37,661 nt of DNA from Elusimicrobiota bacterium. GTDB lineage: Bacteria > Elusimicrobiota > Elusimicrobia > Elusimicrobiales > UBA9959. Location of the stretch: positions 1 through 37,661 of the forward strand of contig JACQPH010000165.1 of assembly GCA_016207645.1 (NCBI GenBank), written 5' to 3'. Under the pieces are notes generated by a model. That model was not told the origin of the DNA, did no database searches, and saw only the letters and a program-made list of their open reading frames with translations. Both the position numbers and the translations under genes were made by a program. Shown here piece by piece: positions 3,704 through 31,350 of the stretch (position 1 is the first letter of the stretch; each line of letters begins with the position of its first letter).

Positions 3704-6253
3704 ATGATCAGGTTCAAAGAATATATGGAAAGCATAGTCTTCTTCGGAAAAGGCGGCATAGGCAAAAGCACCATAGCCGCCAACATCTCCGTGCTCTTCG
3801 CCGCGAAGGGCCGGAAGGTGCTCCATGTAGGCTGCGACCCCAAGAGGGATTCCACCCTGTCCCTCATGGGCCGCCGCATCCGCCCCTTCAATGAGCAGGG
3901 CGGCTCCACGGGCGAGGAAGCCCTGCGCCTCTCCCTGCACCGCACGATCAAGGGCATAGACTGCATAGAGGCCGGCGGCCCCCAGGCCGGCGTAGGCTGC
4001 GCCGGCGCGGGCATAGGCGCCATGCTCGACGCCATCAAGGATTCCTCCCTCATCGAAAAAGAGGGCTACGACACGGTGGTCTTCGACGTGCTCGGCGACG
4101 TGGTCTGCGGCGGCTTCGCCGCCCCGCTGCGCCGCGGTTTCGCCAGCAAGGCCGTGCTGGTGGTCTCCGAGGAGCTCCTCTCGCTTTACGCGGCCAATAA
4201 CCTGATCTCGATGGTGAACAATTACGCCAGGAACGGCGTGTTCCTCGCCGGCCTGGTGGTAAACGCCAAGGACCCGGCCGCGGTAAAGCTGGCCCGCGAT
4301 TTCGCGAAGGCGGCCAATACCCGCGTGCTGGGCGTGATACCGCGCGACCCCGCCGTCATCAGGTCCGAGAGGGCCCGCAAGCCCGTGGTGGCGCTGGAGC
4401 CGCGCAGCGAAGCGGCCAGAAGCCTGGCCCGCCTGGCCGGCGAGCTGGCCGCCGCGGGCATGCCCGCCTCGCCGCCGCGCATGCTGGGCGAAGCCGAATT
4501 CGAAGCCTTCATGAACGAAAGGCCGCTGCCGCGGGCCGCGCGGAGCGCCGCCCCCGCCCCGGCCCGCGAAAACCGCAAGGCCAGGGTAGCCGCCTCCGTT
4601 CTGCTGGAAAGGTCCGGCTTCAGCATGACCGGCGTCACCGGCGGGCAGGTGGTTTGCGCCTGGAAAGGCGGCGGCGACACTTTCCGGCTCTTCATAGCCC
4701 CGGCTTCCGACTCCAGGCCGGCCATGGTCGGAGTAGGCGACTGGGCCTACTGCTTCCTCCCCGGGGAGGGACCGGGCTCCAACTCTTCCAGGGACGCTTT
4801 CCTGGCCGCGCTCGGGGAGATCTCCGGCCTGCGCTTCGACGATTTCATCTCGGCCTTCAGCGGCGGCCTGGATTTCTACGGGAACGTGGACTCCTTCGGC
4901 AAGACCTCTTCCCACCCGCTCATGCCCGAGGGCGGCCGGCCGGTGGAACCGTACCTGGGTTTCGGGCAATGGCAGCGCTTCCTTTTTTCCGACAGTTCCG
5001 GCATCTGCATCCCGCCCGGCTCCGTCATGGTGGAGCACGGAGACAACGAGTGCCGCTTCAGCGGCTGCTCCCAGACGCCGCTCAACACCTTCCAGAAAAT
5101 AGCCGGTCTCGCCAACGACTCCACCCCCTCCCTCGGCCCGCTGCTGCCGAAGGAAGAGCGCCTGATAGTGACCACCGATTTCCTGTATCAGGACGCCGTC
5201 AACGGCGACGAGAAGAAGATAGCCGCCGCGCTGAAAGCGGCCGCCGCGCGTACCGGCCCCGGCGGGCTGGTGGAATTCTACACCGGCTGCGCTCCTCTTG
5301 TCCTGGCCAGCGACGTTTCTTCTTTCAGCGACAGGGCGGCCCGCGACCTCGGCGTGGAAGTGCTGCGCGAGAATTTCAACAGCTTCTGCACCGAGACTCC
5401 GGAGAAAGTGAGGGCCCGCTCCGCTTTCGTGGTCAGGAGGCTCTCCGCCCTGAAGCGGGCGAAGAAGCCGCTGGACGTGAACCTGATAAATTTCGGCGGC
5501 TGCCGCGAGCCCCTTTCCGCCCTGCTCGGCTCCAAGGGGCTGGCCCTGAAGACCTGGGAGGAAGAGTTCTACTCCGATATAGCCTCGGCGCGGCTGCAGG
5601 TCCTCTCGGCCGCCGACCCCGTGCTGACCGCGGCCTTCGACCAGCTCGGCATTAAATGGGCGGCGCCGGGAGCGCCCTACGGCGCCGCGGCCACCGGGGC
5701 CTGGCTGCGCTCGCTGTTCTCCGCCCTGGGCAGGAAAAGCCCGAAGGAAGGGTTCGGCCCGGCCAGGAAAGAAACGGAAGCCGTCGCCGCCGGCGTAAAG
5801 CGCCTGTCGCGTTTCGCGGCGGGCTTCGTGGCCTCGCCAGAAGAAATAGGCATGCTGGAGGGTTCCTGGGCGGTCTCCGGCGTGCCGCTGGTCTCTTTCC
5901 TCGCCGAAGCCGGGCTGGCGCTGAGGCTTTTCGTTTACGCCGCCGACCGCGCCGCCAGGACCCTGGCCGGCGCGGAGACGGCCGCCCTGGCCGCCAGGAC
6001 CGGGACTAAACCCAGGCTGGCTTTCTTCGACAGCCCCGGCGGGCTTTTAAAAGCCCTGTCCGGCGACCGGGCCCTGCGCCTGGTCTATTCCGACATACCG
6101 CTGGACCCGCGGCTGGCCGCCGCCGGGAAGAGCGCTTTCTCCGTCTCCGCCTGCGAGCCCGGCTACGAGGGCGCGGCCGAGACCCTGCGCCGGCTGGCGC
6201 AGCTTTGCGAATGGGATTTCAATGAAAGATATTTCCGGACAAAAAGCGTTTGA
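3704..6253 (+). CDS. NifH-NifD-like fusion (nitrogenase-like ATPase/reductase)
   Basis: The protein has 849 residues. Residues 1-260 are Fe-protein-like: P-loop GKGGIGKST at 15-23 and the two [4Fe-4S] ligand positions, Cys99 in GVGCAGAG and Cys135 in DVLGDVVCGGF. The Arg that normally follows the first Cys (GCAGRG in NifH, the ADP-ribosylation site) is Ala102. After a Pro/Ala-rich linker, residues from about 290 resemble a NifD/BchN-type subunit. Possible P-cluster-like cysteines lie in SGICIPPGS, HGDNECRFSGC and YTGCAPL. The region aligning with the FeMo-cofactor Cys of NifD (around VLSAADPVL) has no Cys. This is therefore not expected to fix nitrogen. ATG 3725 (MESIVFFGKGG) fits the usual NifH start; 3704 is chosen as the outer ATG. 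The upstream GTG at 3659 lies inside the repeat and is rejected. It overlaps the NifK-like gene by 32 bases. Confidence 0.85.
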   Translation: MIRFKEYMESIVFFGKGGIGKSTIAANISVLFAAKGRKVLHVGCDPKRDSTLSLMGRRIRPFNEQGGSTGEEALRLSLHRTIKGIDCIEAGGPQAGVGCAGAGIGAMLDAIKDSSLIEKEGYDTVVFDVLGDVVCGGFAAPLRRGFASKAVLVVSEELLSLYAANNLISMVNNYARNGVFLAGLVVNAKDPAAVKLARDFAKAANTRVLGVIPRDPAVIRSERARKPVVALEPRSEAARSLARLAGELAAAGMPASPPRMLGEAEFEAFMNERPLPRAARSAAPAPARENRKARVAASVLLERSGFSMTGVTGGQVVCAWKGGGDTFRLFIAPASDSRPAMVGVGDWAYCFLPGEGPGSNSSRDAFLAALGEISGLRFDDFISAFSGGLDFYGNVDSFGKTSSHPLMPEGGRPVEPYLGFGQWQRFLFSDSSGICIPPGSVMVEHGDNECRFSGCSQTPLNTFQKIAGLANDSTPSLGPLLPKEERLIVTTDFLYQDAVNGDEKKIAAALKAAAARTGPGGLVEFYTGCAPLVLASDVSSFSDRAARDLGVEVLRENFNSFCTETPEKVRARSAFVVRRLSALKRAKKPLDVNLINFGGCREPLSALLGSKGLALKTWEEEFYSDIASARLQVLSAADPVLTAAFDQLGIKWAAPGAPYGAAATGAWLRSLFSALGRKSPKEGFGPARKETEAVAAGVKRLSRFAAGFVASPEEIGMLEGSWAVSGVPLVSFLAEAGLALRLFVYAADRAARTLAGAETAALAARTGTKPRLAFFDSPGGLLKALSGDRALRLVYSDIPLDPRLAAAGKSAFSVSACEPGYEGAAETLRRLAQLCEWDFNERYFRTKSV

Positions 6254-7535: not shown

Positions 7536-9779
7536 TCAGTATCTTTCCAGTTCCGCCTTGGCGCCGGGAAGCCCCGGCCAGTCGGCGGGAGCTCTTTTAA
7601 CGCACTCCCGCAGGACAAGCGCGGCTTCCGGTCCGCGCCCCAGCGATCTGAGCAGCTTGTAACTTACAAGGTCCGCCTCGCTCGCGAGCATCCTGAAACC
7701 GGGCAGCCTGTTCTCGGGGAAAGCATAGACCGCGTAAGAACTGCTTCTGCAGGCCTCCAGCGCCCCGGCCTTCATTTTCTTTTTCAGCCTGAGCACGCAG
7801 ATATCCATCAGCGCCTCCGGGTTGTAGGCGTTGATCGCGACGGCTTCGCTCAGCAGTTCTTCCGCCCCGGCCGGATCGCCGGCGCGCATCTTTTCCGCGG
7901 CCAGGTCGGACAGCTTCTTGGACTTTTCCGAGTCCTCCTCCCGTATCAGGCGCAGAAGCCCGGGCGGCAGGCCTAGAACGTTCAGGAACATTTCCGAAAA
8001 GATCCTCCCGCGCGCCAGCCGGTCCCCGAACTCGCCATGCGCGTCCAGCAGGGAAAGCTCGGCGTCAAGCTCCCTCAGCCGCGGGGTAAGCCCGGACCGC
8101 TCTTTCAGGCCGGCCAGTATCCTGGCCGCGCCCCGGGGAGGCCAGAGCAGAAGGGCGGGATAGACCGACCTCTCCCAGAAACCGGAGGTGTTCTGCCGTA
8201 TGAGGCCGGCCAGCTTCCTGTCGGTCTCGTTAGTCTCTTTTCTCAGGAGATTCAGGTGGGTGTTGTATTCGTAAAAAGCCTCTTCGAGCGAGACCGAGGC
8301 CGCGGCCCGGTCTCCCAGCTCCAGCTCCCGCAGCATGCGTATCACCAGGCCGTCCAGGCCCTCCCCGCCCTTGTTTTTTATTTCCGAGGGCTTGCCGGAC
8401 TTTACCGCCAGCAGAAAATATTCTTTTGCCCCGTCCTTGAACTCGCGGCCGTAGTCGGAGAGGCAGCGATAGAACCCCTCGTCGTCCCCGCGCTCCCTGA
8501 GCCGGGCGCAGCCGAGCTCGCGAAATACCCTGTCGCGGGGGAAGCGCCCGATGGCGCGCGAAAAAGCCGCGTGATCGGCGCTGTTGCGCGCGGCCCGCTG
8601 GGGATACGCCAGGATGAGCGCTTCGACGGCGAGAACCGCGCAAAAGGACAGGCCGGACAGGAAATAGACGCTTTTGGCGGGGCGGGCGCTCTCCTCCGCG
8701 GGCCTGCCTGAGAACCGGGAAAACAGGCTTCCCGCTATCAGCGGGGGAAGCAGGTACAATAAAGGATAAAAATAGCGCTTCTCTATGGAAAGGAAAGAAT
8801 GGATCAGCACAAAATACAAGGGCAGGCTGAAGAGCGGGAGCTTGTTCTTTTCGCGGCTAGCCGCGGCCGCCAGCAGCAGCGCTGCGAACAAGGCGGGATA
8901 AAAGAGAAGTATGTACCAGACCCGCCTCAGCACCGTACTGGCGTGAAACACGGGGTCCTTCAGTATTTCCCGGACGTAAAATTTTACGGAGCTGTCCTCC
9001 TCCCCGATGCCGGCCAGCAGGCGGGAATCCCCCTCCATGGTGTAGATACTGCCTTTGGCCGCGGTGATGATGTTGCAGGCCCCTCTGCGCCCGTCGAAAA
9101 AGGAGAACTCGCCGGAAACGGAGCGGTTCAGCAGGGCCCAGGGAACGAGCAGGGCGTAAGAAGCCAGGATGAAAAGGAGCGAACGCCGGAGAAAAGCTTT
9201 GGAGCGGTCCCCCCCGGTAGGCCAGCCGCACAGCGCGAAGAAGGGCGGGAACAGGAACAGCGGCGTGCGCACCAGCAGGGAAGCCCCCGCCGCCAGGCCG
9301 CACAGCGCAGCCGTTCCGGGCGAGGGGTCGCGGCGCTTCAGCAGGAGCAGCGAAAGCAGCAGTAAAAGGAAAAAACTGTAAAGGGACTGTTCGGCGTCAT
9401 AGGGGAACCCTCCGCCGGCCTCGAGCAAGCCCGAGGCCGCGAGCGAGGCCAGCCCCGCGTAATAGCCGCCGAGAAGGCCGCCGGCGCTGTAAACCAGCGC
9501 ATAGATGCCCGCGTGCAGCAAGACGAAGATCGAAGCCGGCGGGAGCCCCAGGTTCAGCGCGGCCGCGCCAAGCAGCTGGTACATGGGCATGCCCCAGGAC
9601 ACCGTGTTGAGCGGCAGGCCGGCCAGCAGGAACGAGCCCGCGTAAACGCCTTTTAACCCGAGGGCCGGGAGGGCGAGGAACAAATTCAGCAGGATGAGCC
9701 CGGCGGCGAGGGACAGCGCCAGCGCCGTCTTAAGCCGGCTGGAGGCGTCGAAAGCGGCAAGGTACTTTTTAAGCGGCAT
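7536..9779 (-). CDS. Polytopic membrane protein (GT-C glycosyltransferase-like) with C-terminal helical domain
   Basis: The protein has 747 residues. The first about 350 hold roughly ten hydrophobic segments (for example LFLALPALGL, SFFLLLLLSLLLL, ILLFYPALFAALLL, FYPLLYLLPPLIAG). Between them lie loops of the kind seen in GT-C/PMT-like lipid-linked sugar transferases, although no canonical Asp-Glu motif is certain. The rest is helical and soluble. Residues of about 625-747 match the C-terminal domain of the SGNH protein at 1513-3525 (shared EALM, ALEACR, KLL, CVK, WPGL, AKA.L). The stop codon abuts the stop of the convergent NifK-like gene. Transferase function is a weak inference; the membrane topology is clear. 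Confidence 0.6.
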   Translation of the reverse strand: MPLKKYLAAFDASSRLKTALALSLAAGLILLNLFLALPALGLKGVYAGSFLLAGLPLNTVSWGMPMYQLLGAAALNLGLPPASIFVLLHAGIYALVYSAGGLLGGYYAGLASLAASGLLEAGGGFPYDAEQSLYSFFLLLLLSLLLLKRRDPSPGTAALCGLAAGASLLVRTPLFLFPPFFALCGWPTGGDRSKAFLRRSLLFILASYALLVPWALLNRSVSGEFSFFDGRRGACNIITAAKGSIYTMEGDSRLLAGIGEEDSSVKFYVREILKDPVFHASTVLRRVWYILLFYPALFAALLLAAAASREKNKLPLFSLPLYFVLIHSFLSIEKRYFYPLLYLLPPLIAGSLFSRFSGRPAEESARPAKSVYFLSGLSFCAVLAVEALILAYPQRAARNSADHAAFSRAIGRFPRDRVFRELGCARLRERGDDEGFYRCLSDYGREFKDGAKEYFLLAVKSGKPSEIKNKGGEGLDGLVIRMLRELELGDRAAASVSLEEAFYEYNTHLNLLRKETNETDRKLAGLIRQNTSGFWERSVYPALLLWPPRGAARILAGLKERSGLTPRLRELDAELSLLDAHGEFGDRLARGRIFSEMFLNVLGLPPGLLRLIREEDSEKSKKLSDLAAEKMRAGDPAGAEELLSEAVAINAYNPEALMDICVLRLKKKMKAGALEACRSSSYAVYAFPENRLPGFRMLASEADLVSYKLLRSLGRGPEAALVLRECVKRAPADWPGLPGAKAELERY

Positions 9780-9859
9780 AGGCTGCGCACCGGAGGCCGG
9801 GCCGGCATGGCATTACCGAAGAGGGGCACGGCTTAGCGGGGAGTCCGTCCGCCCGGCCC

Positions 9860-9907
9860 TTACAGGTACTGCGGTATGGCGGCCTACAAGTACTGAGGAA
9901 TAGCGGC
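9860..9907 (-). repeat. Tandem duplication of the last eight ygeY codons
   Basis: On the minus strand, 9907-9884 encodes A-A-I-P-Q-Y-L-stop and 9883-9860 encodes A-A-I-P-Q-Y-L-stop again, immediately after and in the same frame. The two 24-base units differ only at synonymous positions (GCT/GCC, ATT/ATA, CCT/CCG, TTG/CTG) and in the stop codon (TAG/TAA). Confidence 0.9.
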
Positions 9908-11074
9908 GTAAAACGCTGCGGCCTTCACCAGGTCCCCGGCCGGCATGAATTCGTTGACGGTATGGGCGTGCACCTCGTTGCCGGGGCCGAAGCCGATGGT
10001 CGGTATCTTCAGGCGGCCGGCGGTGGCCACGCCGTTGGTGGAGAACACCCATTTATCCACTACGGGAGTTTTCTTCAGGGCTACCTTGCCCGCCTCCACG
10101 CCGGCTTTCACCAGCTTATGCCCGGCGGGCAGCACCCAGGTGGGAAAGTACTTTTCCTGGTCCACTTTCGCGCCCGTCCAGGCCACGGCATTATACCAGA
10201 GCACTTCCACTTTTGCCCCGGCCTTCTTCACGGAGGGCAGACGCCGGATCTCCGCCACCGAGCTCTTCAGCGTCTCGCCTACGGTCAGGCGGCGGTCCAG
10301 GTAAATGGTGGCTTCGTCCGGCACGGCGTTCAGGGACGGGGTCTTGCACTCTATGCAGGTCACGGCCACGGAGCCTTTGCCGAGGAACTTGTCGGTCTTG
10401 AGCTTCTTGTTGATTGCCGTTATTTCCTTCACTATATCGGACATCTTCACCACGGCATTGTCTCCGCGCTCGGGGGCGGAGGCATGGCAGGAGCGGCCCT
10501 TGGTGACCACCTTCATCTCCATGCGGCCGCGGTGGCCGCGGTAGACCTTGAGGTCGGTGGGCTCGGTGATGACGACGAAGTCGGGGCGTATTTTTTCCTT
10601 ATTGATGAGGTGGAGGAGCGGCAGGCCGTCGCAGTCCTCTTCCATGACGGAGCCGACGACGATCAGGGTGTAATCGCCTTCCAGCTTGAGGTCCTTTATT
10701 ATCTTCCCGGCATAGACCATGGAGGCCATGGAGAGCTTCTGGTCGGTGGCGCCGCGGCCGTAGATGGTGTCGTTCCTGTAGAGGCCGGCGAAGGGGTCTA
10801 TCTTCCAGGCTTTGGGGTCGCCGATGCCGACGGTGTCGATATGGGCGTCGAGCATGATCTTCTTTTTGCCGTGGCCGATGAAGCCGATGACGTTGCCTAT
10901 TTTGTCTATCTTCACTTTGTCGAAGCCGACCTTCAGCATTTCCTTCTTTATGAGGGCCACGAGTTTGCCTTCCCGGCAGGAAAAGCTGGGCGTGCGTATG
11001 ATATTGCGCGCGAAAGCGACTATATCCTTCTTATATTTGTCCGCTGCCTTGCGAATAAGTTCGGCGTCGTTCAT
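9884..11074 (-). CDS. ygeY: YgeY-type M20 metallohydrolase
   Basis: This 396-residue M20 peptidase/deacetylase-family enzyme best fits the YgeY group, known as the selenium-metabolism-linked hydrolase, whose substrate is unproven. Dinuclear metal ligands are visible: H78 and D80 in DAHIDTVG, D111 in GRGATDQK, E145-E146 in VMEED, E171 in TEPTD, and the late His in NEVHAHTVNEF. GGAGG precedes the ATG at good spacing. It lies 32 bases after the cysteine desulfurase gene, so it is probably in an operon with that gene and the radical SAM gene before it. Its 3' end is duplicated (9860-9907), so readthrough of TAG would add a second copy of the tail. The pairing with ygeW in this window supports the family call. 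Confidence 0.9.
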   Translation of the reverse strand: MNDAELIRKAADKYKKDIVAFARNIIRTPSFSCREGKLVALIKKEMLKVGFDKVKIDKIGNVIGFIGHGKKKIMLDAHIDTVGIGDPKAWKIDPFAGLYRNDTIYGRGATDQKLSMASMVYAGKIIKDLKLEGDYTLIVVGSVMEEDCDGLPLLHLINKEKIRPDFVVITEPTDLKVYRGHRGRMEMKVVTKGRSCHASAPERGDNAVVKMSDIVKEITAINKKLKTDKFLGKGSVAVTCIECKTPSLNAVPDEATIYLDRRLTVGETLKSSVAEIRRLPSVKKAGAKVEVLWYNAVAWTGAKVDQEKYFPTWVLPAGHKLVKAGVEAGKVALKKTPVVDKWVFSTNGVATAGRLKIPTIGFGPGNEVHAHTVNEFMPAGDLVKAAAFYAAIPQYL

Positions 11075-11106
11075 GTTTTTCCTCCGTAGTCCGTCTTAAG
11101 TATATT

Positions 11107-12357
11107 CTATTTCAATAGTGAAAGGTATTTTTTCAGGGCCTGCACAAAGACTGCCGTGTCTTCAGAGGTGTTGTAGGCGAAGAAGGAAATTCTGATGGTC
11201 TCGCGGTAGCCGGAGGAGAGACAGGCGAGGTCGGCGCAGTGGCGGCCGGTGCGCAAGGCTATGAAGCGGCCTTTGAGCTGGTGGTTGAGGTAGAGGTTGA
11301 AATCGGGGATGGAGAAGCCTTTTTTCTCCGGCACTATGGAGATGAGGGAGCCTTCCAGCAGGTCTTCCCGCCCGCCCAGGACGCGGACCCCTTTTATCCC
11401 GGCCAGCTTCTTGAGCGCGTCGTCCACCAGGCAGGAAACATGGGCCCGGATATTCTCGAAGCCGCAGTTCTCCAGCCGGTCGAGCGCCGCGGCCAGGCCG
11501 GCGGCGCCGGAACAGTTCTGCACCCCGGCCTCGAAAGCCTGGTAGTTGCCCAGGTACTTCACCTTGTAGCGGCCGTCCGAGACGGAAACGTCCTCTATCG
11601 TGCCGCCTCCCACCCGCCAGGGGCGGAGCCTGCCCAGGAGTTCCCGCTTCACGAAAAGGGCGCCGGTGGAATAAGGCGCGCCCAGCTTGTGGCCGGAGAA
11701 GGCGCAGGCATCCGCGCCGTACAGGGCCCCGCTGCCGCCATGCGTGGGGGCGTACTGCGCGTCGTCGGAAAAGAGATAAGCGCCGGCGGCGTGCGCCAGG
11801 TCCGCCGCGGCGGAGAGCTCCATCCGGCCGCCGAAAATATTGGAGGCGTGGGTAAGGCAGACCAGAGCCGTCCTCGGCCCCAGTATTTCAGCGTAGGCCT
11901 CCAGGTCCGGCTTGAAGCCTTTCAGCGGAACGACGCGCAGCTTTACCTTTCCCGCCGAGGCCAGGCGCTCGAAAGGCAGGAAGACCGCGTTATGCTCCAC
12001 CGGAGAAAGGACGACTTCGTTCCTTTTGGGCGTGAAAGGGAAGGAGTTGGCCAGCAGGTTCACGGCGTCGGTGACGCCGGCGCAGAAAATTATTTCCTCC
12101 GGTGTTCCTGCCCCCATGAAAGAGGCCACGCGCGAGCGCGCCGCCGAAAAATTCTCCTCCATGGCCGCGGCCAGGGCGTGGAAGGACCGCTTGCCGCCGC
12201 AGCCGCCCAGCTCCAGCATATGCCGGCGCTGCGCGTCGGCGGCGCAGCGCAGCTTCAGCACCGTGCAGGCGCTGTCCAGGTAGACCATGCGCTTCCCCGA
12301 GAAGCTGGAGCCCAGGGCGGGAAACTCTTTTTTAAGGGCGGCGATCTTGTTATTCAT
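11107..12357 (-). CDS. Cysteine desulfurase-like class V aminotransferase (SufS/Csd type)
   Basis: The protein has 416 residues and is PLP-dependent. The Schiff-base Lys224 lies in FSGHKLGAP, His122 in EHN is the ring-stacking position, and DDAQ (198-201) holds the pyridine-nitrogen Asp. Cys374 in RTGRHCAD is at the persulfide-forming position of SufS-type enzymes (usually RxGHHC). Sulfur mobilisation from cysteine is therefore plausible. It overlaps the upstream radical SAM gene by four bases (ATGA), which suggests translational coupling and a shared role, perhaps Fe-S cluster supply or sulfur donation to the product. A dedicated sulfurtransferase for one substrate cannot be told apart from a general Fe-S supplier. 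No SufBCD or IscU genes are in the window. Confidence 0.85.
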   Translation of the reverse strand: MNNKIAALKKEFPALGSSFSGKRMVYLDSACTVLKLRCAADAQRRHMLELGGCGGKRSFHALAAAMEENFSAARSRVASFMGAGTPEEIIFCAGVTDAVNLLANSFPFTPKRNEVVLSPVEHNAVFLPFERLASAGKVKLRVVPLKGFKPDLEAYAEILGPRTALVCLTHASNIFGGRMELSAAADLAHAAGAYLFSDDAQYAPTHGGSGALYGADACAFSGHKLGAPYSTGALFVKRELLGRLRPWRVGGGTIEDVSVSDGRYKVKYLGNYQAFEAGVQNCSGAAGLAAALDRLENCGFENIRAHVSCLVDDALKKLAGIKGVRVLGGREDLLEGSLISIVPEKKGFSIPDFNLYLNHQLKGRFIALRTGRHCADLACLSSGYRETIRISFFAYNTSEDTAVFVQALKKYLSLLK

Positions 12358-13470: not shown

Positions 13471-13767
13471 TTAAGCCGGCTTAAAATCTACTACCACCCG
13501 GTACTTTAAAACGCCGGCGATCTTTTCAAGCATACCGAAGGTAAGGTTTTGTTCACCGCTTTCGATACGCGAAATTGCACCCTGGCCCGTTCCAATTGCT
13601 TTAGCCAATTGAACCTGGGTCATATGCTGATGTTCCCGCATCTCTACTATCTTTTCCGCGACAACCGCTTCCAGGTAATGCCGCTCAAAACCCTCTTTAA
13701 AGCCGGGCTTCTTCATTTCCTCATTGAGCCTGTCGCGGAAAGTCCTTTTCTTGTTTGTCATTCTCAT
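13471..13767 (-). CDS. HTH antitoxin (HigA/XRE type)
   Basis: This 98-residue protein has an XRE helix-turn-helix of about residues 40-92 (MTQVQLAKAIGTGQGAISRI). The start at 13767 has AGGGG four bases upstream; longer versions run into the toxin gene. It follows the toxin gene by 17 bases in the same operon, the toxin-first order typical of HigBA. It probably binds and neutralises the toxin and represses the promoter at 14192-14220. The base composition is more AT-rich than the surroundings, which fits acquisition. Confidence 0.85.
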   Translation of the reverse strand: MRMTNKKRTFRDRLNEEMKKPGFKEGFERHYLEAVVAEKIVEMREHQHMTQVQLAKAIGTGQGAISRIESGEQNLTFGMLEKIAGVLKYRVVVDFKPA

Positions 13768-20257: not shown

Positions 20258-20258
20258 C

Positions 20259-22324: not shown

Positions 22325-22553
22325 CTCAGCTACCGGAGGGGGCGACCGCGGCATGCCCCTGAGCACCCGTTGCGGAAAGGGGGCCCCTAAAAAGGTGCCA
22401 GCCTCCTTTTTGCCCTTTTTGTCAGCTGCCCTTATTGAGGGTGCACAGCAAAAAGGAGGCTGGCACCTTTTTAGGGGGGAAACCGACGCAAGGGTTTCCT
22501 CTGCCCGGGTGAGCAGGGGCATGCCGCGGCCGCCCCCAAACCCGCGCGGTTGC
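22325..22553 (+). repeat. Large palindromic repeat, copy 3, with nested palindrome
   Basis: Same family and orientation as 1-117 and 3573-3703. Both outer arms are present (CTACCGGAGGGGGCG... and ...GCCGCGGCCGCCCCC), as is the GGAAACCGACGCAAGGGTTTCC hairpin. Its centre is occupied by an unrelated 94-bp palindrome (22384-22477). Its right half is translated as the tail of radical SAM E on the other strand. Confidence 0.9.
22384..22477. repeat. REPIN-like 94-bp perfect palindrome nested in copy 3
   Basis: The 30-base arm at 22384-22413 is an exact inverted copy of 22448-22477, around a 34-base loop. The core reads AAAAAGGTGCCAGCCTCC. I recall similar GTGCCAGCCTCC palindromes from other bacterial genomes with RAYT genes, from memory only. 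The stop codon of radical SAM E lies in the right arm (22471-22473). Confidence 0.9.
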
Positions 22554-23466: not shown

Positions 23467-24302
23467 GGAGTTTCGGGAGCGCTTTCCCGCCTGCCCAGCA
23501 GCTTGCGGACCCGGGCATTGACCTCTTCCGTGATCCTCTCGTTCTCCCGGCGCAGCCGCTCCGCTTCGGCCTTGTCCTCCTCTTCCTTCCCGATGGCCGC
23601 CTTTACCTCTTCCGGCGAGAAACCGGCGTAGCCGCCGGCCCTTTTCTGGGCCTTGGCCAGGTAGCCGCAGTATGCGGAACCGGTTTTGGAGAGCAGCGCG
23701 GAGCAGGAAGCCTCCGACTTCGCGGAGAAAGCCGAGCAGAGGCCGCCGAGACCTTCCGGGCAGGCGCCCCCGGCGGCGGTAAGGGAAGAAACGGACCGGT
23801 AATATTGCCCGCACAGGTAATTGGGACTGCCCTCGCGCGTGATCACGGCCCGGCCGCCGCGGCTTTCCCCCGGCAGGTAGTCGCAGAAGGCCGGGTCCCC
23901 GCGGGCCAGCCCCACGCAGGAAAGGTACCTGGCCAGCAGGTCGTAGGTAGCCGCGTTATGCTCTTCGAGGAAGGAGCCGTACGCGGACAAATAGCCCCAG
24001 ACACGCCCGTGCGCCGAGAAGATCTCGTTCAGGGAACCGCCCTTGCAGGGACCCTTGTCGTAGCTCTTGTTCTTTATGGTCGGCAGGGCGCCGTAAGAGG
24101 AACGCGCCCCGGACCGGGCGGGAACGGCCGAGAACTCCTCCGGGATAGAGTACCGGGTGTCGCCGTCCGGGGCCGGGGCGCCCGGCGCCGCCGGCTGCCC
24201 GGGCGTGGAGCCGGAACTTCCGTAGGACCCGTGCCGCGATAATTTAACGGCGCCGGCGAGAGCGAGCAGCAGCGCCGCGGAGAGGATCAGCCATTTCTTC
24301 AT
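23463..24302 (-). CDS. Secreted or membrane-anchored Cys-rich protein, unknown function
   Basis: This 279-residue protein has an N-terminal hydrophobic segment (MKKWLILSAALLLALAGAV) that is a signal peptide or anchor. A Ser/Gly/Pro linker follows, then a domain with about nine Cys (KGPCKGG, LSCVG, FCDYL, YLCGQ, GGACPE, GLCSAF, ASCSAL, AYCGYL), and then a charged coiled-coil-like tail. I do not recognise the family. It lies between the HxsD-like gene and radical SAM E and overlaps the latter by four bases. That makes it a candidate substrate or partner of the radical SAM enzymes, but it has no His-x-Ser repeats. Confidence 0.7.
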   Translation of the reverse strand: MKKWLILSAALLLALAGAVKLSRHGSYGSSGSTPGQPAAPGAPAPDGDTRYSIPEEFSAVPARSGARSSYGALPTIKNKSYDKGPCKGGSLNEIFSAHGRVWGYLSAYGSFLEEHNAATYDLLARYLSCVGLARGDPAFCDYLPGESRGGRAVITREGSPNYLCGQYYRSVSSLTAAGGACPEGLGGLCSAFSAKSEASCSALLSKTGSAYCGYLAKAQKRAGGYAGFSPEEVKAAIGKEEEDKAEAERLRRENERITEEVNARVRKLLGRRESAPETP

Positions 24303-24350: not shown

Positions 24351-24644
24351 CTATCCCCGCTTCGCCGCCTTTTCCCCGGCGGCGGAAAGCAGGGCTTTGG
24401 TGGCTATGAGGGAAGCTATCTTGAAATTTTTCCGGCCCAGGTCCAGACGGCACTGCTGGTTCAGGGCCTCGTTGCAGAATTCCAGGGCGGCGCCGGCGCC
24501 GGCGGCTTCCACCCTGACCCCGCCGGCGGCTTTCACGGCGCGCACGCCGCGCCCCTCGAAGACCGCGGAGGCCAGCCGCACCGCCTCTTCGCAGTAGATC
24601 TCGGAGCTCAGGAAGAGATACCCGGTTTTTTCAGCAGGCTTCAT
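24351..24644 (-). CDS. HxsD-like small protein (second copy)
   Basis: This 97-residue protein starts at ATG 24644, overlapping the HxsB-like stop by ATGA; the longer frame inside the HxsB-like gene is rejected. The pattern SSEIYCEEAVRLASAVF ... VRVEA ... EFCNEALNQQCRLDLGRKN resembles HxsD proteins of the His-Xaa-Ser peptide-maturation system (YxLEAVxxAA start, LAxEFxNELLxQ centre). It may be a peptide-recognition or partner subunit for the radical SAM enzyme. The similarity is judged by eye. Confidence 0.6.
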   Translation of the reverse strand: MKPAEKTGYLFLSSEIYCEEAVRLASAVFEGRGVRAVKAAGGVRVEAAGAGAALEFCNEALNQQCRLDLGRKNFKIASLIATKALLSAAGEKAAKRG

Positions 24645-26104
24645 TTTTGCACCCACCCTTTCAGGATCCCGGCGCTGGCCGGCTTCTTCAGCAGGCCGAA
24701 GAGCGCGTCGAACATGCCCAGGGAGAGAGCGCAGCGCCCGCTGGCCGGCATATCGCCCCACAGGGAGCCCTGGGTCTCGTAGTTGTACACGGGGCAGACC
24801 CCGCAGTAAGGCTTGTAAACGCAGCGGGAACATTGCGGCTGGGCTTCCAGGTTGGAGGCCGCGGCGCAGGCCCGCGAAGCCGGAGCCAGCATCACCTTGC
24901 GGTAGGAGTCCTTCAGCACGTTCCCGATCCTGAAGAGGTCGTCCCCCTCCCAGCCCACCATGCGGCCCTCGTCGCAGGTATAGAGATCGCCGTTATAATT
25001 GTAGGCCACCTGCCCGACGGCGGCGCCGCAGGGGCAGCGCATGTCCAGGTAGCCGGGGTCGCCGCCGTTGACGATCTTCTCCAGCATGATCACGGCGTGC
25101 CGCTCCTTTATCTTCTTTCCGGCGGCGTTCAGTTCCAGGATATAGTCCAGCGTGTTGCGGTAGAAGCGGGCGAATTCCTCCGCGGAATAGCCTATGCGCG
25201 GCCAGAGGTTCCTGGCGTAGCCTATCGGGGCCAGCGGCCGCACGAAAATATCGGCGAGGCCGCGCCTCACGTACTCGTCCACTATCTCTTTCTCGCGGCC
25301 GAGCGAATACTTCGACACGGTCAGCAGGGCGCTGGGGTTGAAGGTCTTGTACTCCGGCACCTGCTTCGCGGCGCGGGCCGCGAAATACCCGAGCCACTTC
25401 ACGGTATCGGCGTGGGAGTTCCCGCCGGTGAAAATGCGGTTCTTGTTGTGCAGGTCGGCCGGCCCGTCGAGCGAGGTGCAGACCGAGACCTCGTTCTCCA
25501 CCAGGAAGCGGGCTTTCTCTTCCGACATCAGGCTGAAATTGGAGACCAGGGCCAGCCGCACTTCCCGGTTGAGTTCCCCGCCGCGGCGGCGGGCGTATAG
25601 AGCGGTGTCCTTCAGCGTTTTCCAGTTGAGCAGCGGCTCCCCGCCCTGGAACTCTATCGTGATGCCGGGATTGGTGCTCTTGAGCGCGAAGTCCACGCAC
25701 TTGCGGGCCGTCGCGGCGCTCATGTCGGTCCTGGCGCCGGCGGCGCCGAGCGCCCCGGACTGGCAGTACAGGCATTTATGGTTGCAGCGCAGCGTCATGA
25801 CCAGGATATGCAGGCCCGGCCCGGCGCCCAGGAAAGCGTTCTTTTTCGAGCAGGCGGCGGCGTAGCTCTCGAAATCCGTCATCTCGCGCACGAAGCCCTT
25901 GGCCGCGAGTTCGCCGTAAAGAGCCTCGCCGGCGCCCAGGCGCCCCGAGGAGAAGCGCGCGAAATCCGCTTTGGAGAGCGCGGCGGAGAAGCCGGCGTCG
26001 TTGGAAAGCAGGACGGAGCCGTCCGCCATGCGGCGGAAGGTGAAATAGGGCAGGCCGGCCACGCGCGGCTTACCTGTTTTTTTTGCGGCCGTTCTTTGAG
26101 TCAT
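24641..26104 (-). CDS. hxsB: HxsB-like radical SAM/SPASM maturase
   Basis: This 487-residue protein has an N-terminal recognition-type region (about 15-85, with LLSNDAGFSAALSKADFARF), the core C107-x3-C111-x2-C114 (CNHKCLYC) with FQGGEPLL, and a C-terminal SPASM domain with CPCG, CDEGRM and CSRCVYKPYCGVCPVYNYETQG. The layout and these motifs match HxsB, the radical SAM maturase of the His-Xaa-Ser system. It is distinct from the six shorter radical SAM proteins here. It overlaps the HxsD-like gene before it by 35 bases and the one after it by four. No HxsC was recognised. Peptide modification is the expected activity; the peptide is not identified. Confidence 0.8.
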   Translation of the reverse strand: MTQRTAAKKTGKPRVAGLPYFTFRRMADGSVLLSNDAGFSAALSKADFARFSSGRLGAGEALYGELAAKGFVREMTDFESYAAACSKKNAFLGAGPGLHILVMTLRCNHKCLYCQSGALGAAGARTDMSAATARKCVDFALKSTNPGITIEFQGGEPLLNWKTLKDTALYARRRGGELNREVRLALVSNFSLMSEEKARFLVENEVSVCTSLDGPADLHNKNRIFTGGNSHADTVKWLGYFAARAAKQVPEYKTFNPSALLTVSKYSLGREKEIVDEYVRRGLADIFVRPLAPIGYARNLWPRIGYSAEEFARFYRNTLDYILELNAAGKKIKERHAVIMLEKIVNGGDPGYLDMRCPCGAAVGQVAYNYNGDLYTCDEGRMVGWEGDDLFRIGNVLKDSYRKVMLAPASRACAAASNLEAQPQCSRCVYKPYCGVCPVYNYETQGSLWGDMPASGRCALSLGMFDALFGLLKKPASAGILKGWVQK

Positions 26105-27496: not shown

Positions 27497-27886
27497 TCAG
27501 AGCAGGACAACTACGAGAGCGGCCTTGAATTTATCCTTAAGGAAGGACCTGGCCTCGCCGGCTATATCGGCGAAGTCCTCCAGGTCCCCGGGGGAAGAGG
27601 AAAGAAAGGACCCGGAATTGCGGACGGCCAGCACATAGCCGCGCGCCGGGATCTCTCCCGGCAGGGAGCGGAGGCAGTCCAGCAGGGCGTCCCAATTCCT
27701 CCCGAAATAGGCGGGGAACCCGAAGGCCGCGGCCAGGGCCTCCATCAGCGCCGCCTTGTCCGGGATCCCGGCGCCGTCCACGCAGGCCGTGAAATAAGCG
27801 GGCGGAGGGAATAGCCTGGCTATTTCCTCCGCCGGAGCCGCGCCGGACCTCAGGTCCAGGAAAAGTCCTTCCTCCGCGGGCATCAA
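27497..27886 (-). CDS. Barstar-family RNase inhibitor
   Basis: The protein has 129 residues. DGAGIPDKAALMEALAAAFGF followed by PAYFGRNWDALLDCLRSL is the barstar core, including the helix that blocks the barnase active site. It overlaps the stop of the RNase gene by four bases (ATGA), so inhibitor and enzyme are made together. It protects the cytoplasm from the paired RNase at 27883-28428. Confidence 0.9.
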   Translation of the reverse strand: MMPAEEGLFLDLRSGAAPAEEIARLFPPPAYFTACVDGAGIPDKAALMEALAAAFGFPAYFGRNWDALLDCLRSLPGEIPARGYVLAVRNSGSFLSSSPGDLEDFADIAGEARSFLKDKFKAALVVVLL

Positions 27887-28428
27887 TAGACTACGGCGAG
27901 CGGTATGAAATTCCTGTAGTGGTCCGGCGTATAATAGATCTTTTCCCCGCCGCCGATTATTATCCGCTCCGAGCCGCGGGCGCTCAGGTCGGGCGCCACC
28001 TGGTAGACGGTCCCGCCTATCACCACAACGTGGGGGGCGTTGCCGGTGAGCAGGGTGTATTCGCGGTAGAAGCCGCTGGGCTGCGCGGGCAGCTTTTTTT
28101 CCTTGTTCTTGAACACCGCCCCGTCCTGGGAGTAGGGCAGGTGGGCCCCGCCGTAAATATCGGACACCAGCTTCATTATCGCCTTGATGCGGGCGGCGTC
28201 CTCGATCCTCGGGGTGAAGTCCCGGCCCGGGGCGGGAGCTGCGGCGCGGATCCCGGGCAGGGCCTCCGGGACGGCCGGAAGCTCCGCCAGGTTCCCGGCT
28301 CCGGGGCCTGAAATGAGTTCGCCGAGGGCGGCTGAAGTCAACCCGGAAGCCGGGGAGAAGGAAAAGGCGGAGAAAGAGAGGGCGAGTACGGCCGCGAGTT
28401 TCAATAACCCGCTTCTGTTTTTAAACAT
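27883..28428 (-). CDS. Secreted barnase-like ribonuclease (N1/T1 family)
   Basis: The protein has 181 residues with a signal peptide (residues 1-29, LAAVLALSFSAFSF). The C-terminal about 85 residues form the RNase domain. The general base Glu123 (FYREYT), Arg155 (SERIIIGG) and general acid His170 (YYTPDHYRNF) correspond to Glu73, Arg87 and His102 of barnase. AAAAGGA precedes the ATG. The barstar gene is coupled downstream. It could be an exported nutrient-scavenging RNase or an antibacterial toxin; the window does not decide. Confidence 0.88.
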   Translation of the reverse strand: MFKNRSGLLKLAAVLALSFSAFSFSPASGLTSAALGELISGPGAGNLAELPAVPEALPGIRAAAPAPGRDFTPRIEDAARIKAIMKLVSDIYGGAHLPYSQDGAVFKNKEKKLPAQPSGFYREYTLLTGNAPHVVVIGGTVYQVAPDLSARGSERIIIGGGEKIYYTPDHYRNFIPLAVVY

Positions 28429-28655: not shown

Positions 28656-29576
28656 ATGAAAAAGGGAGTCAAAAAAACCGGGTGGATAAGCGAGCAGCTC
28701 TGCGTGCAGATGGCCCGCACCTGCAATCTTTACTGCGTCTACTGCCAGAACCCGCCGGCCGGAGCGCGCTGCTCGAAAGAGAAGACCGCGGCGCTCGTCG
28801 GGAAAAAGGGCGTCAGGGCGGTAAGCCTGGAAGGGGGCGGCGAGCCGACGGCGGGCGGGGATTTCTTCGACTGGATAAGGGCGCTCAAGGCCGCCGGGGT
28901 GGAGAATTTCATGCTCTCCACCAACGCCGTGGCCCTCTCCGACCCGGCTTTCTGCCGGAGAGCGGAAAAAGCCGTGGACTACTTCACGGTGAACTTCCCC
29001 TCCCATGACCCGGAAATATACCGGAAGGCCACCCGCAGCGTGAAGTACGGCCTGGCGGTAAAGGGACTGGAGAACCTGAAAGCCGCCGGCGCCGAAAACA
29101 GGCTCCGCCTCTTCCACATAATTTTCAGGGACAATTACCGCCTGCTCCCGGCCTTCGCAGGCTGGGTCATAAAGAAGTTCCCCGGCCTGGCCTTCGTCAA
29201 TTTCACCTTCGTGCGCAACGCCGGGCGGGTAGGGGACAGCGCGGCCATAGTCCCCCGTTACTCCGAGGTCGAGCCGTTCCTGAAAGTGGCGCTCGCCGGG
29301 CTCAAGCTCAAAAAGATCAAAGCGGTGGTACAGAACATCCCCCTTTGCCGCCTTAAGAATTTCGAGGGTTTCTCATTCGAGTTCCAGCGCTGGCGCAGGG
29401 GGGACAAGGTGCTGGAGGCGGGCATAGCGGGTAAAGCGAAGAACCCGGCCTGCGGCCGCTGCGGGCTGGAGCCGGCCTGCTGCGGCGCCAGGGCGGATTA
29501 CCTGAAGATACACGGGAACGGAGAGCTGCTCCCCTCGGACCTGGACCCCGGGAGCCTCGAGGCGGAGGCGTTCTGA
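28656..29576 (+). CDS. Radical SAM protein G
   Basis: The protein has 306 residues. C23-x3-C27-x2-C30 (CNLYCVYC) is the SAM-cluster motif, and EGGGEPTAGG is the GGEP-like motif. IPLCRLKNF and CGRCGLEPACCG form the auxiliary signature shared with five proteins on the other strand, so it is a family member although encoded divergently. It overlaps the next gene by one base (TGATG). The four micro-palindromes before its ATG leave no ordinary ribosome-binding site, so translation may depend on that structure. Substrate unknown. Confidence 0.85.
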   Translation: MKKGVKKTGWISEQLCVQMARTCNLYCVYCQNPPAGARCSKEKTAALVGKKGVRAVSLEGGGEPTAGGDFFDWIRALKAAGVENFMLSTNAVALSDPAFCRRAEKAVDYFTVNFPSHDPEIYRKATRSVKYGLAVKGLENLKAAGAENRLRLFHIIFRDNYRLLPAFAGWVIKKFPGLAFVNFTFVRNAGRVGDSAAIVPRYSEVEPFLKVALAGLKLKKIKAVVQNIPLCRLKNFEGFSFEFQRWRRGDKVLEAGIAGKAKNPACGRCGLEPACCGARADYLKIHGNGELLPSDLDPGSLEAEAF

Positions 29577-30523
29577 TGAAAATAGTTTCCTGTTTTTCCG
29601 ACCTGAAAGAGCTGGAGCCGCTGGCCGGAGCCGGCGCCGACGAGTTCTATACGGCTATAGCGGCGCTGCCGGCCTTCAGCGTCGGTTTCCTGCCGGGCCG
29701 CGACCTGGCGCCGGCCATAAAGACCGCCCACGCGCTCGGGAAGAAAATAGCCCTGGCCGTCAACGCCATACATTTCCCCGCCACCCTCAAGCAGCTGGCC
29801 GCGGCGGAGAAGCGGATACGGGGCCTCGACAGGCTGGGCATGGACGCCTTTATCTTCTCCAACCCCTACCTCCTCGGCCTGTTCTCGGGACGCCGGAAGC
29901 TCCCCGGGGCGAAGCTCCACCTCAGCTCGGTGCAGCCGGTCTTCAACAGCCTCAGCGCCGCTTTCTTCTCGCGCTTCGGCGTCTCGCGCCTCATCCTGCC
30001 GAACCAGCTCTCGCCTTACGAAGCGCGGAAGATCCTCGCCTTCTGCCGCGCCCGCGGCATCGAGACCGAGATCTTCGATTACCGCTTTTTCGGCTGCGCC
30101 TATATCAACGGCCGCTGCCAGCTGCACCGGCCCGACCATTACACGCTGAAGTCGGCCATACTGGAAGGCTCGCTCTGCCGGATAAACGCGCCGGCGGGCG
30201 GGCTGGTGAAGCTCAGGACCCTGGACCTGCCGGCCCGGGCGCGGGAGCTGCCGCGCCTGGTCAAGCGGCTCGAGGCCAGGTTCACCTGCGGCGGCTCCCC
30301 CAGGCTCTCCAACGCCGCGGCTTTCTTCGATTTCTTCTCTTCCGGCGTGCGGTACCTGAAATACGGCACCCGCCACGACCCGTCCGGGGTCAAGGTCAAA
30401 AAGGTGGCCGAGCTGCGGCGCATGCTGGACCTGGCGGAGAAACTCTCCGCCGAACTGCCGCGCGCCGAAGCCCGGCGGGCCTTCGTGGCGGAACTCTCCG
30501 GCTGGAACGGGGGCGGCTTCTGA
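29576..30523 (+). CDS. U32 peptidase-family protein, UbiU-like
   Basis: The protein has 315 residues. The TIM-barrel pattern of the U32 family is visible (GADEFYTAI, LAVNAI, DAFIFSNPYL, LHLSSVQPVFN, RLILPNQLS). Four Cys in the UbiU arrangement (GCAYINGRC with six residues between, then GSLC, then FTCGG) could bind a [4Fe-4S] cluster. UbiU/UbiV pairs carry out oxygen-independent hydroxylation in quinone synthesis. No other quinone gene is here, so a different substrate is likely. It is start/stop overlapped with radical SAM G and the next gene. Confidence 0.8.
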   Translation: MKIVSCFSDLKELEPLAGAGADEFYTAIAALPAFSVGFLPGRDLAPAIKTAHALGKKIALAVNAIHFPATLKQLAAAEKRIRGLDRLGMDAFIFSNPYLLGLFSGRRKLPGAKLHLSSVQPVFNSLSAAFFSRFGVSRLILPNQLSPYEARKILAFCRARGIETEIFDYRFFGCAYINGRCQLHRPDHYTLKSAILEGSLCRINAPAGGLVKLRTLDLPARARELPRLVKRLEARFTCGGSPRLSNAAAFFDFFSSGVRYLKYGTRHDPSGVKVKKVAELRRMLDLAEKLSAELPRAEARRAFVAELSGWNGGGF

Positions 30524-31350
30524 TGCCGGTGGAAAAAGGGATAAGGCTGGGCGCGTTGACGCTGGCCGGGCTGAAAAAGTCCGGCGGGCTGGAAGCCGCG
30601 CTGAAGGGGTTCGAACGTTTTTATATCGGCCCGGAGTTCTGCGAGAACCTGCTCGGCCTTTCGCTCTGCGCCGAAGCGGCCTGGCTGCTGAAGCGGGGCA
30701 GGAAGGTCTGCCTGCTGACCCCGCTGCTGAGCGAGAAGGGCCTGGGGCTGCTGGATTCCGTCTTCGGGAAGCTCCTGCAGCTGGTCGGGCGCGGCGAGCT
30801 GGACCCGGCGGGCCTGGAAGTGACCGTGAACGATTTCGGGGCCGTCGAGCTGGCCAGGAAGCGCCGCCTTCCGTTCACGCTCAACGCCGGACGCCTGCTC
30901 CACGACAACGTTTTCGACGACACGGGGAAGGACGACATCACCGTCCACAACGGGCTGGCCCTGGACTTCTTCCGCGGCCTGGGCATCAGGCGCTTCGAGC
31001 TTTCCACGCTCGGCGTCCGCCCCTCCGTGAATTTCGCGCGCGGCGCTGTCTTCGGTTTCGACCGGCGCTCCTTCAGGATAACCCTGCACTACCCCTACCT
31101 CAACCTCACCAGCACGCGCACCTGCCCGGTAGGGATGCGCGACACGCCGCCGATGGAGGCGGCGCGCGGCGTGGACTGCGCGCGGGAATGCCTCGTCAGC
31201 TCTTTCGAGCTGGCCCACCCTTCCATCAGGGAAAAGCTCCTGGTCCGCGGCAATACCGTCTACCTCGACTTCCCGCAGAAGTTCTACGCCTCGGAAAAGG
31301 ACCTCGCCAGGCTGAACGTGGACAGGCTGGTCTACTCCCCTTTTCCCTGA
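30523..31350 (+). CDS. U32 peptidase-family protein, UbiV-like
   Basis: The 275-residue partner of the preceding protein, overlapping it by one base (TGATG). Cys40 in GPEFCEN matches the early Cys of UbiV, and TRTCPVGM plus VDCARECL (C-x3-C) supply the other cluster ligands. The barrel pattern (FYIGPEFC, VTVNDFGAVEL, LNAGRLL) is that of U32 proteins. It probably forms a heterodimer with the UbiU-like protein. A terminator follows directly. Confidence 0.8.
   Translation: MPVEKGIRLGALTLAGLKKSGGLEAALKGFERFYIGPEFCENLLGLSLCAEAAWLLKRGRKVCLLTPLLSEKGLGLLDSVFGKLLQLVGRGELDPAGLEVTVNDFGAVELARKRRLPFTLNAGRLLHDNVFDDTGKDDITVHNGLALDFFRGLGIRRFELSTLGVRPSVNFARGAVFGFDRRSFRITLHYPYLNLTSTRTCPVGMRDTPPMEAARGVDCARECLVSSFELAHPSIREKLLVRGNTVYLDFPQKFYASEKDLARLNVDRLVYSPFP

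Follow-up and report, generated by a model that had tools for sequence, protein, structure and literature searches.

The stretch analysed here, hereafter the window, is the whole of contig JACQPH010000165.1 (our C141; 37,661 bases) of an Elusimicrobiota genome (GCA_016207645.1, our G000; 2.80 Mb in 167 contigs, 81% complete). It carries a nitrogenase-like reductase, comprising a NifH-NifD fusion (HD) and a K subunit and collectively termed HDK, along with seven radical S-adenosylmethionine (SAM) proteins, among them the His-Xaa-Ser (Hxs) maturase HxsB. The nitrogenase-like K subunit occurs almost exclusively together with an Hxs cluster, both in Elusimicrobiota and in a second phylum. On balance, we lean towards reading the locus as an enlarged peptide-maturation cluster of the HxsA4 type with an added nitrogenase-like reductase that serves it. 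The tie to an Hxs peptide in two phyla appears to be new, as does the evidence against a tetrapyrrole reading, and the gene neighbourhood itself has partly been published. The original prediction, made from the letters of the window, had envisaged a multi-step product and assigned none; the radical-SAM-rich locus that it described stands, and the likeliest product is now a modified peptide, because HxsA4, a His-Xaa-Ser precursor made by the ribosome, is encoded in the cluster.

The window was annotated by profile scans with Pfam and NCBIfam, and scores were judged against curated cut-offs. Three features are needed at the outset, the first two of which confirm, through their PF00142 and PF00148 matches, the predicted H-D fusion and K-type protein:

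3659-6253, + strand: NifH-NifD fusion (HD) of the nitrogenase-like reductase; PF00142 216 bits, PF00148 35.5 bits
6222-7535, + strand: K subunit of the nitrogenase-like reductase; PF00148 121.8 bits; best Foldseek match NifK, E 1.2e-21
24641-26062, - strand: HxsB radical SAM/SPASM maturase; TIGR03978 476.6 bits, over the cut-off of 370

Co-occurrence of K with HxsB

K was found in 47 of 340 genomes of the phylum and HxsB (TIGR03978) over its cut-off in 90. HxsB was over the cut-off in 45 of the 47 K-positive genomes, compared with 45 of the 293 K-negative ones (Fisher test, p = 2.5e-28; these tests ignore kinship between genomes). The exceptions were G230, with a partial HxsB (287.6 bits), and G224, with none. 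Around K, the G224 contig (23,402 bases, of which the first 20,000 were fetched) is arranged as in G223, and it ends approximately 13 kb beyond K; in G223, HxsA4-HxsB lies about 17 kb beyond K, past the point where the G224 contig ends. Within family f15, in which Hxs is patchy, strong HxsB matches were present in 21/22 K-positive and 8/22 K-negative genomes (p = 6e-5); read the other way, K was present in 21 of the 29 genomes with a strong HxsB and in one of the 15 without.

The association recurred in a second phylum, a set of 195 genomes that contains G340 (the genome of locus L157) and G359 (that of L208) and was taken as Myxococcota. Strong K matches were found in 13 of the 195, two weak ones (G373 and G460; 61 and 73 bits) being set aside. 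HxsB was over the cut-off in 12 of these 13 and in 19 of the other 182 (p = 3.7e-10), or in 12 of 15 K-positive genomes if the weak matches are included, against a background of 31 genomes over the cut-off and 41 at E<=1e-60 in the whole set. Named genomes were also searched with the K alignment, yielding 76 loci (from the best 80 of 104 relatives). Of these, 49 were taken as Elusimicrobiota and 27, from 20 metagenome-assembled genomes (MAGs), as others, named as Deltaproteobacteria, Myxococcota/Myxococcales, Oligoflexales, Bradymonadales, Anaeromyxobacter or 'proteobacterium'. All 20 non-Elusimicrobiota MAGs found by K had HxsB at E<=1e-60; 19 were over the cut-off, and in the other the gene was split over two contig ends.

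Physical linkage

From genomes of the same phylum, stretches surrounding K and HxsB were fetched, and their genes were called with our own codon-usage script and clustered. G223, G224, 11 further maps of families f12, f14 and f15, and the named loci were scanned in six frames using hidden Markov models (HMMs) built from these clusters. For the linkage test, 113 listed K places of the 47 K-positive Elusimicrobiota genomes were entered, four short K fragments (two in G193, one in G202 and the sole one of G232) being omitted, and 2000 random-placement trials were run. K lay within 20 kb of HxsB in 19/47 genomes, against a mean of 3.2 and a maximum of 9 under random placement; for a distance of 50 kb the count was 22/47, against a mean of 5.6 and a maximum of 13. 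The observed counts are minima, owing to contig breaks.

In four fetched loci, HxsD, HxsB, HxsA4 and D-K were found on the same strand, three of them also with H. These strings consist of HMM matches only, and further genes may intervene. They read HxsD-HxsB-HxsA4-rSAM-H-D-K-rSAM-rSAM-A24 in L130 (G200), where rSAM denotes a radical SAM gene and A24 the membrane-protein family listed below; D-K-Lp-HxsD-HxsB-HxsA4 in L218 (G231), where Lp is a membrane-anchored protein; HxsD-HxsB-HxsA4-rSAM-rSAM-H-D-K in L215 (G193), with K in two pieces; and HxsD-HxsB-H-D-K-HxsA4, within 8 kb, in L216 (G361) of the second phylum. The stretches fetched from 37 same-phylum genomes cover 87 K sites, of which 65 have an HxsC-like radical SAM gene within 10 kb and 11 have HxsB at this distance. 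The 27 named non-Elusimicrobiota K loci, covered to at most 10 kb on each side, held D in 26, an HxsC-like radical SAM gene in 16, H in 15 and HxsA4 in two.

The HxsA4 precursor

The HxsA4 gene of the window genome lies outside the window, at 18145-18471 (- strand) of contig C134. It encodes 108 residues, namely a leader and, after it, about 16 His-Xaa-Ser units, most of them His-Gly-Ser, and matched the precursor model NF038313 with 52 bits alone and 80.7 bits with its neighbours in frame (cut-off 55). The last 71 bases of C134 (21,261 bases) are exactly the first 71 of the window, and its last genes encode HxsA4, a membrane-anchored protein and a second HxsB. Since the order and strand of C134 plus the window match G149, beyond the 71-base overlap, the two contigs were taken as neighbours; a mere 71-base repeat is unlikely given the shared order. 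If they are joined, HxsA4 lies about 6.4 kb and the second HxsB about 3.7 kb from HD. Two more UbiU/UbiV-like pairs lie upstream of HxsA4 (L213, from C134; record positions 8632-11914).

The classic HxsA model, TIGR03979, matched in 0/59 genomes and was rejected as a probe, HxsA4 being the right model. NF038313 was searched in 80 genomes at E<=0.001. It matched in 45 of the 47 K-positive Elusimicrobiota genomes (exceptions G177 and G224; under the cut-off in G104, G132, G156 and G232), in 11 of the 13 of the second phylum (exceptions G359 and G360; under the cut-off in G340), in all 12 K-negative genomes with HxsB that were included (weakly in G103) and in one of eight with neither (G233, weak, 31 bits). 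As a control, 14 well-known genomes gave one match and none over the cut-off.

HxsA4 sequences end (L036, L050, L130, L216 and others) in an aromatic motif (HGSY, HGSW, HGQW or HGAW) or in RGGWC, and these two ending types may mark two product types. A difference between the precursors of K-positive and K-negative genomes was sought and none was clear: HGSY and RGGWC were found in both groups, and HGSW/HGQW/HGAW were seen in K-positive genomes only, in a small set.

Two separable parts

The closest relatives of the window's K protein are those of G142, G149 and G151, each with 83% identity. In G142 and G149, which belong to the same genus, the gene order from the carbamoyltransferase-like gene to LpxD, and with it that from HD to PhoH, is as in the window except for 7536-9779 and 13471-17963. 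The predicted conservation of a radical-SAM-rich locus was thereby borne out, and the adjacency of its nitrogenase-like and radical SAM genes is kept in both genomes.

Nine same-family genomes without a K match (G123, G125, G127, G128, G134, G138, G139, G154 and G157) keep the Hxs run wholly or mostly. In the labels of the feature list given below, it reads r2-r3-A24-HxsC-like-(r5)-Lp-HxsE-HxsB-HxsD-barstar-barnase-PhoH; for seven of these genomes the fetched sequence reaches PhoH. The radical SAM/Hxs cluster therefore does not need HDK. In the window, G142 and G149, HD-K is flanked by the carbamoyltransferase-like gene on one side and the M20/desulfurase genes on the other; in G143 and G156, D and K are separate genes within the radical SAM string. 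The window thus consists of two separable parts, an Hxs-type multi-radical-SAM cluster and HD/K in a variable slot. The single undivided 28-kb system that had been proposed was rejected, as same-family genomes without a K match retain the Hxs part, HD-K moreover being elsewhere in some genomes.

In families f12, f14 and f15, D and K are separate from H and occur in several copies. K copy numbers are lower bounds, to be read as 'at least', with at most five candidates scored in most multi-copy genomes. By our own gene calls, the G192:C16 stretch contains eight genes for K and six for D. Of the clusters of this kind that were observed, the largest were L053-L056 (G192:C16), L057-L058 (G196:C30) and L059-L060 (G195:C45), which contain several D-K sets, two neighbouring H genes and many radical SAM genes, as well as long NodU/CmcH carbamoyltransferase-like genes (named by eye only).

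Cluster ligands and fold of the reductase

HDK has the features of the nitrogenase-like superfamily, namely a NifH with Walker A and two cluster Cys, and component-1 folds. In the H part, both cluster Cys are kept in 44/44 aligned sequences, and the Walker A pattern is present in 16 of 17 separate H genes. AlphaFold models had a mean predicted local distance difference test (pLDDT) score of 86.2 for the D part and 91.6 for K, and both show a component-1 fold: the best Foldseek match of D was a NifEN chain (E 3.4e-13; template-modelling (TM) score 0.46 on the query), and that of K a NifK chain (E 1.2e-21, TM 0.79), with a further resemblance to BchB (TM about 0.76). D also has one further feature:

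approximately 4565-4860, + strand: extra N-terminal domain of D; AlphaFold model

This domain was confidently modelled (about residues 1-98 of the model) as a helix, five strands and two helices. Its candidacy as an HxsD-like domain was rejected, as it gave no profile match to the HxsD, HxsE, HxsA, HxsB, UbV, A24 or Lp families.

Alignment revealed two invariant Cys in D (72/72 and 53/53 sequences in two alignments) and one in K (72/74 and 48/48). Further K Cys are clade-dependent, with Cys33 in 23/28 f1-type sequences and Cys110 in 35/46 others. By sequence, the solved structure nearest to D is MarD (116 bits). D Cys544 (864-residue numbering; 540 in the other numbering) aligns with MarD Cys158, and the residue aligned with MarD Cys270, an Fe8S9C ligand, is not Cys. 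The six P-cluster Cys and the cofactor Cys of nitrogenase were not found as a set in the D/K alignment. Because these ligands are missing, neither a P-cluster nor an Fe8S9C cofactor is expected, and D/K would rather hold one [4Fe-4S] cluster at its interface, in a DPOR-like design with an open substrate cavity. The H part scored best against the NCBI model for CfbC (218 bits, cut-off 402; against BchL it had 169 bits, cut-off 345), and K against BchN (52.8 bits, cut-off 420), so that neither reached the curated family scores of DPOR, COR or CfbCD.

Proposed function

At a more specific level, we put forward, with somewhat less than even confidence, that this ATP-driven, nitrogenase-type reductase is an enzyme of a ribosomally synthesised and post-translationally modified peptide (RiPP), which reduces a group installed by radical SAM chemistry on the His-Gly-Ser repeats and which, in some Elusimicrobiota, has expanded to six or more D-K type gene sets on a single contig, serving different steps. 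In such a pathway, the ribosome would make the HxsA4 precursor, whose gene and place are given above, and HxsB, HxsD and the six HxsC-like radical SAM enzymes would modify its repeats. The best guess for this modification, by analogy with cyclophane enzymes acting on His-X-Ala and Phe-X-Ser, is a His-to-Ser C-C cross-link made by HxsB/HxsC; as the His-X-Ser repeat fits the pattern of HaaB and MscB, repeated His-Ser cross-links are a reasonable guess. The UbiU/V-like pair of the window could add oxygen-independent hydroxylation. The H part would hydrolyse ATP and feed low-potential electrons to the Fe-S cluster at the D/K interface, where D/K may reduce an unsaturated or oxidised group, such as an unsaturated link, on the peptide or its modified form. 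The peptidase-like membrane protein and membrane-anchored partners would then process or hold the product. Because its presence is optional, HDK would tailor the product rather than be needed for the core modification.

Several observations weigh against a reductase that serves the Hxs pathway. Hxs persists without HDK in the 45 K-negative Elusimicrobiota genomes with HxsB. Conversely, G360 of the second phylum has K with neither HxsB nor HxsA4, the set-aside genomes G373 and G460 also have no HxsB, and G177 and G359 have K and HxsB with no HxsA4 match. For 25 of the 47 K-positive Elusimicrobiota genomes, no contig was found with K and HxsB at most 50 kb apart, partly owing to contig breaks; HD-K is on other contigs than HxsB in G126, G130, G146 and G148; and HxsB lay within 10 kb in only 3 of the 27 named non-Elusimicrobiota K loci. 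Moreover, the HxsA4 match was under the cut-off in the five genomes named above, the HxsA4 sequences of K-positive and K-negative genomes look alike, and no match to the extra D domain came from any of the seven families tried.

The same co-occurrence and linkage data would also fit an HDK that belongs to the Hxs pathway and reduces a small-molecule or metal cofactor, destined for the radical SAM enzymes or for the finished His-rich peptide. An optional HDK would suit such an accessory role, and His-rich repeats could bind metal. We consider this unlikely, although no strong evidence speaks against it. The many D-K copies, such as the six D and eight K genes of G192, would suit several peptide steps better, and no cofactor genes stood out in the gene maps, which were not searched systematically for them. 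It is quite improbable that HDK is an independent reductase, acting for instance on a small sulfur compound like the methylthio-alkane and isethionate reductases, which shares genomes or islands with Hxs through common transfer only. MarD as the nearest solved structure and the HD-K genes located apart from Hxs in some genomes speak for it, but the same dependence on Hxs was found in two phyla, the counterpart of MarD Cys270 is not Cys, and the same-strand strings include HxsA4.

DPOR, COR and CfbCD act on tetrapyrroles, and the best models for H and K, CfbC and BchN, would be in line with HDK likewise reducing one, a new tetrapyrrole cofactor then being the product of the radical SAM genes. 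Both HemB and HemC are present in the window genome. Within its genus (32 genomes), each was found in 11 genomes, one HemC being a 38-residue match. Among the 17 K-positive genomes, HemB was not found in 11 (G126, G130, G131, G132, G133, G136, G141, G146, G147, G148 and G152), of which eight are at least 90% complete, and 10 had no HemC match; HemB was as frequent in K-positive (6/17) as in K-negative genomes (5/15; p = 1). Uptake from neighbouring cells would be possible, and the Hem survey covers the window's genus only. The neighbours of HDK are a peptide precursor and peptide-type maturases. The tetrapyrrole route was therefore rejected as the principal explanation, HemB and HemC not being found in most K-positive genomes of the genus, and we regard it as very unlikely. 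That HDK is a true nitrogenase has a negligible probability, despite the NifH and component-1 folds: a PF00148 search of the whole genome (81% complete) retrieved only the D and K of the window, with no NifE/NifN scaffold seen, the P-cluster Cys set is incomplete, and the cofactor position has no Cys. Nitrogen fixation was rejected on account of the cluster ligands and because no NifEN-like gene was seen.

To our knowledge, the nitrogenase relatives with a known job act on small molecules (N2, tetrapyrroles and sulfur compounds). If HDK acted on the HxsA4 peptide, we would know of no earlier nitrogenase relative with a protein substrate, and the link to ribosomally made peptides would extend the group to a new class of substrates. 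It would also offer a handle on His-Xaa-Ser systems, namely a step dependent on strong, ATP-driven reduction. The tetrapyrrole label that surveys now attach to 'group VI' sequences would be corrected as well. The compact clusters L130 (G200) and L216 (G361) make the peptide reading directly testable.

Relation to known systems

The window most resembles the HxsA4/HxsC4 subtype of Hxs systems (NF038313, TIGR03978, TIGR03976, TIGR03977 and NF038332), with which it shares HxsB over the cut-off, relatives of HxsD and HxsC and, elsewhere in its genome, HxsA4 over the cut-off. In contrast to these systems, it has six HxsC-like paralogs, two HxsD-type proteins, a UbiU/V-like pair, a cysteine desulfurase and the nitrogenase-like reductase. 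One report (PMC9062424) mentions HxsB/HxsC only as putative maturases.

The report of nitrogenase paralogs beside radical SAM genes that the original prediction mentioned was identified as Meheust et al. 2020 (ISME J), which is cited in print. It reportedly describes, for groundwater Elusimicrobia, such paralogs accompanied by numerous radical SAM proteins, predicts tetrapyrrole reduction, and is said to mention similar loci in Gracilibacteria and Myxococcales. With the same phylum, nitrogenase-like subunits and, reportedly, a radical SAM neighbourhood, these 'group VI' paralogs are very probably the same family as the window HDK. In two citing papers (PMC9391474, PMC11257099), the homologs of 'group VI' figure as putative or potential genes for tetrapyrroles. 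This published guess fits poorly: described there as potentially tetrapyrrole-modifying, they are here tied to Hxs, and most K-positive genomes of the genus gave no HemB match. Searches of the literature, with the full text of Meheust et al. 2020 outside their range, found neither a nitrogenase-like enzyme together with RiPP and radical SAM proteins nor an HDK-Hxs link.

DPOR/COR (BchLNB, BchXYZ) and CfbCD share with HDK an H reductase and a D/K-type partner without a cofactor ligand. Here, however, scores fall far under the NCBI cut-offs, and the ligands are two D Cys and one K Cys, with a variable fourth. The methylthio-alkane reductase MarHDK and the isethionate reductase IsrBHDK likewise combine a nitrogenase-like HDK with nearby radical SAM genes, and among solved structures the D profile is nearest to MarD. 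MarDK has six P-cluster Cys, with Cys270/His429 for Fe8S9C (PMC12552129); IsrBHDK is described in PMC11423573. Compared with MarDK as described there, D of the window family has neither a Cys270 counterpart nor an invariant third Cys.

The His-X-Ser repeats also fit the aromatic-X-residue pattern of the triceptide enzymes HaaB and MscB: the radical SAM enzyme HaaB joins His C2 to Ala at i+2, and MscB, also a radical SAM enzyme, links Phe to Ser at i+2, giving three-residue cyclophanes (PMC11002830).

Radical SAM and Hxs genes of the window

Apart from HxsB, the Hxs part of the window and its surroundings comprise the following features:

11107-12357, - strand: SufS-like cysteine desulfurase; PF00266 243.6 bits; SufS model 262 bits, cut-off 475
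12354-13199, - strand: HxsC-like radical SAM r1; PF04055; best model HxsC 75 bits, under cut-off
17983-19173, - strand: HxsC-like radical SAM r2; PF04055; HxsC4/HxsC 81/78 bits, under cut-off
19313-20257, - strand: HxsC-like radical SAM r3; PF04055; HxsC4 133 bits, under cut-off
20259-21410, - strand: membrane protein (A24), prepilin-peptidase-like by motif only; family in 26 fetched loci
21407-22303, - strand: HxsC-like radical SAM rC; TIGR03977 144 bits, cut-off 268
22471-23466, - strand: HxsC-like radical SAM r5; PF04055 88 bits; HxsC4 152 bits, under cut-off
23463-24302, - strand: membrane-anchored Cys-containing protein (Lp); no family match; adjoins HxsE/HxsB in G142 and G149 also
24351-24644, - strand: second HxsD-type protein (here HxsE); HxsD model 16.8 bits
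26070-26543, - strand: HxsD-like protein; TIGR03976 25.7 bits, E 1.1e-5, cut-off 50
28656-29576, + strand: HxsC-like radical SAM r7; PF04055; HxsC 53 bits, under cut-off
29576-30523, + strand: U32 protein (U32a), UbiU-like; PF01136 47 bits; UbiU model 45 bits, under cut-off
30523-31350, + strand: U32-related protein, UbiV-like; family beside the U32a gene in 29/29, four Cys in 29/29

The seven radical SAM proteins that had been predicted were all confirmed by a PF04055 match and a CxxxCxxC motif. The six other than HxsB fell into one cluster of the grouping and have a C-terminal CxxCxxxxxC motif, which HxsB also carries; their best NCBI models were HxsC or HxsC4, never over the cut-off. We know of no triceptide pathway that uses a nitrogenase-like enzyme. 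The predicted Hxs-like module holds through HxsB, with the HxsD-like and HxsC-like proteins under their curated cut-offs (25.7 vs 50 and 144 vs 268 bits). HxsE, which the original prediction did not list, is related to the HxsD family by hhalign (probability 98.2, E 4.5e-14). The PF00266 match bears out the cysteine desulfurase. Of the two U32 Fe-S proteins, the first stands on PF01136, and the second is only likely, given its pairing and four Cys: it had no Pfam match over the cut-off and a weak profile match to the UbiU-like family (hhalign probability 83.5). The supposed A24-type peptidase is a real membrane-protein gene with motif resemblance only (no Pfam match at E<=0.001, no NCBIfam match at E<=1), and its name follows motifs regarded as those of A24 proteases. 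The gene overlaps are ATGA at 12354, 21407 and 24641 and TGATG at 29576 and 30523, as listed, except that 23463 is GTGA, not ATGA.

Between r1 and r2, block 13471-17021 holds a helix-turn-helix (HTH)/Gp49 pair, a caspase-like gene (C14, EACC1-associated type) and a Y1 transposase; r1 and r2 are neighbours in G142 and G149, and the block looks like an insertion. The 304-residue protein encoded at 17049-17963 (- strand), which matches DUF483 weakly (21.7 bits, under the cut-off), has no counterpart at this position in G142 and G149. Also beyond the genes first listed are a barnase-type RNase and barstar (27497-28428), whose families were each found in 14 fetched loci and which, in many genomes, keep their place between the Hxs cluster and PhoH, with or without HDK.

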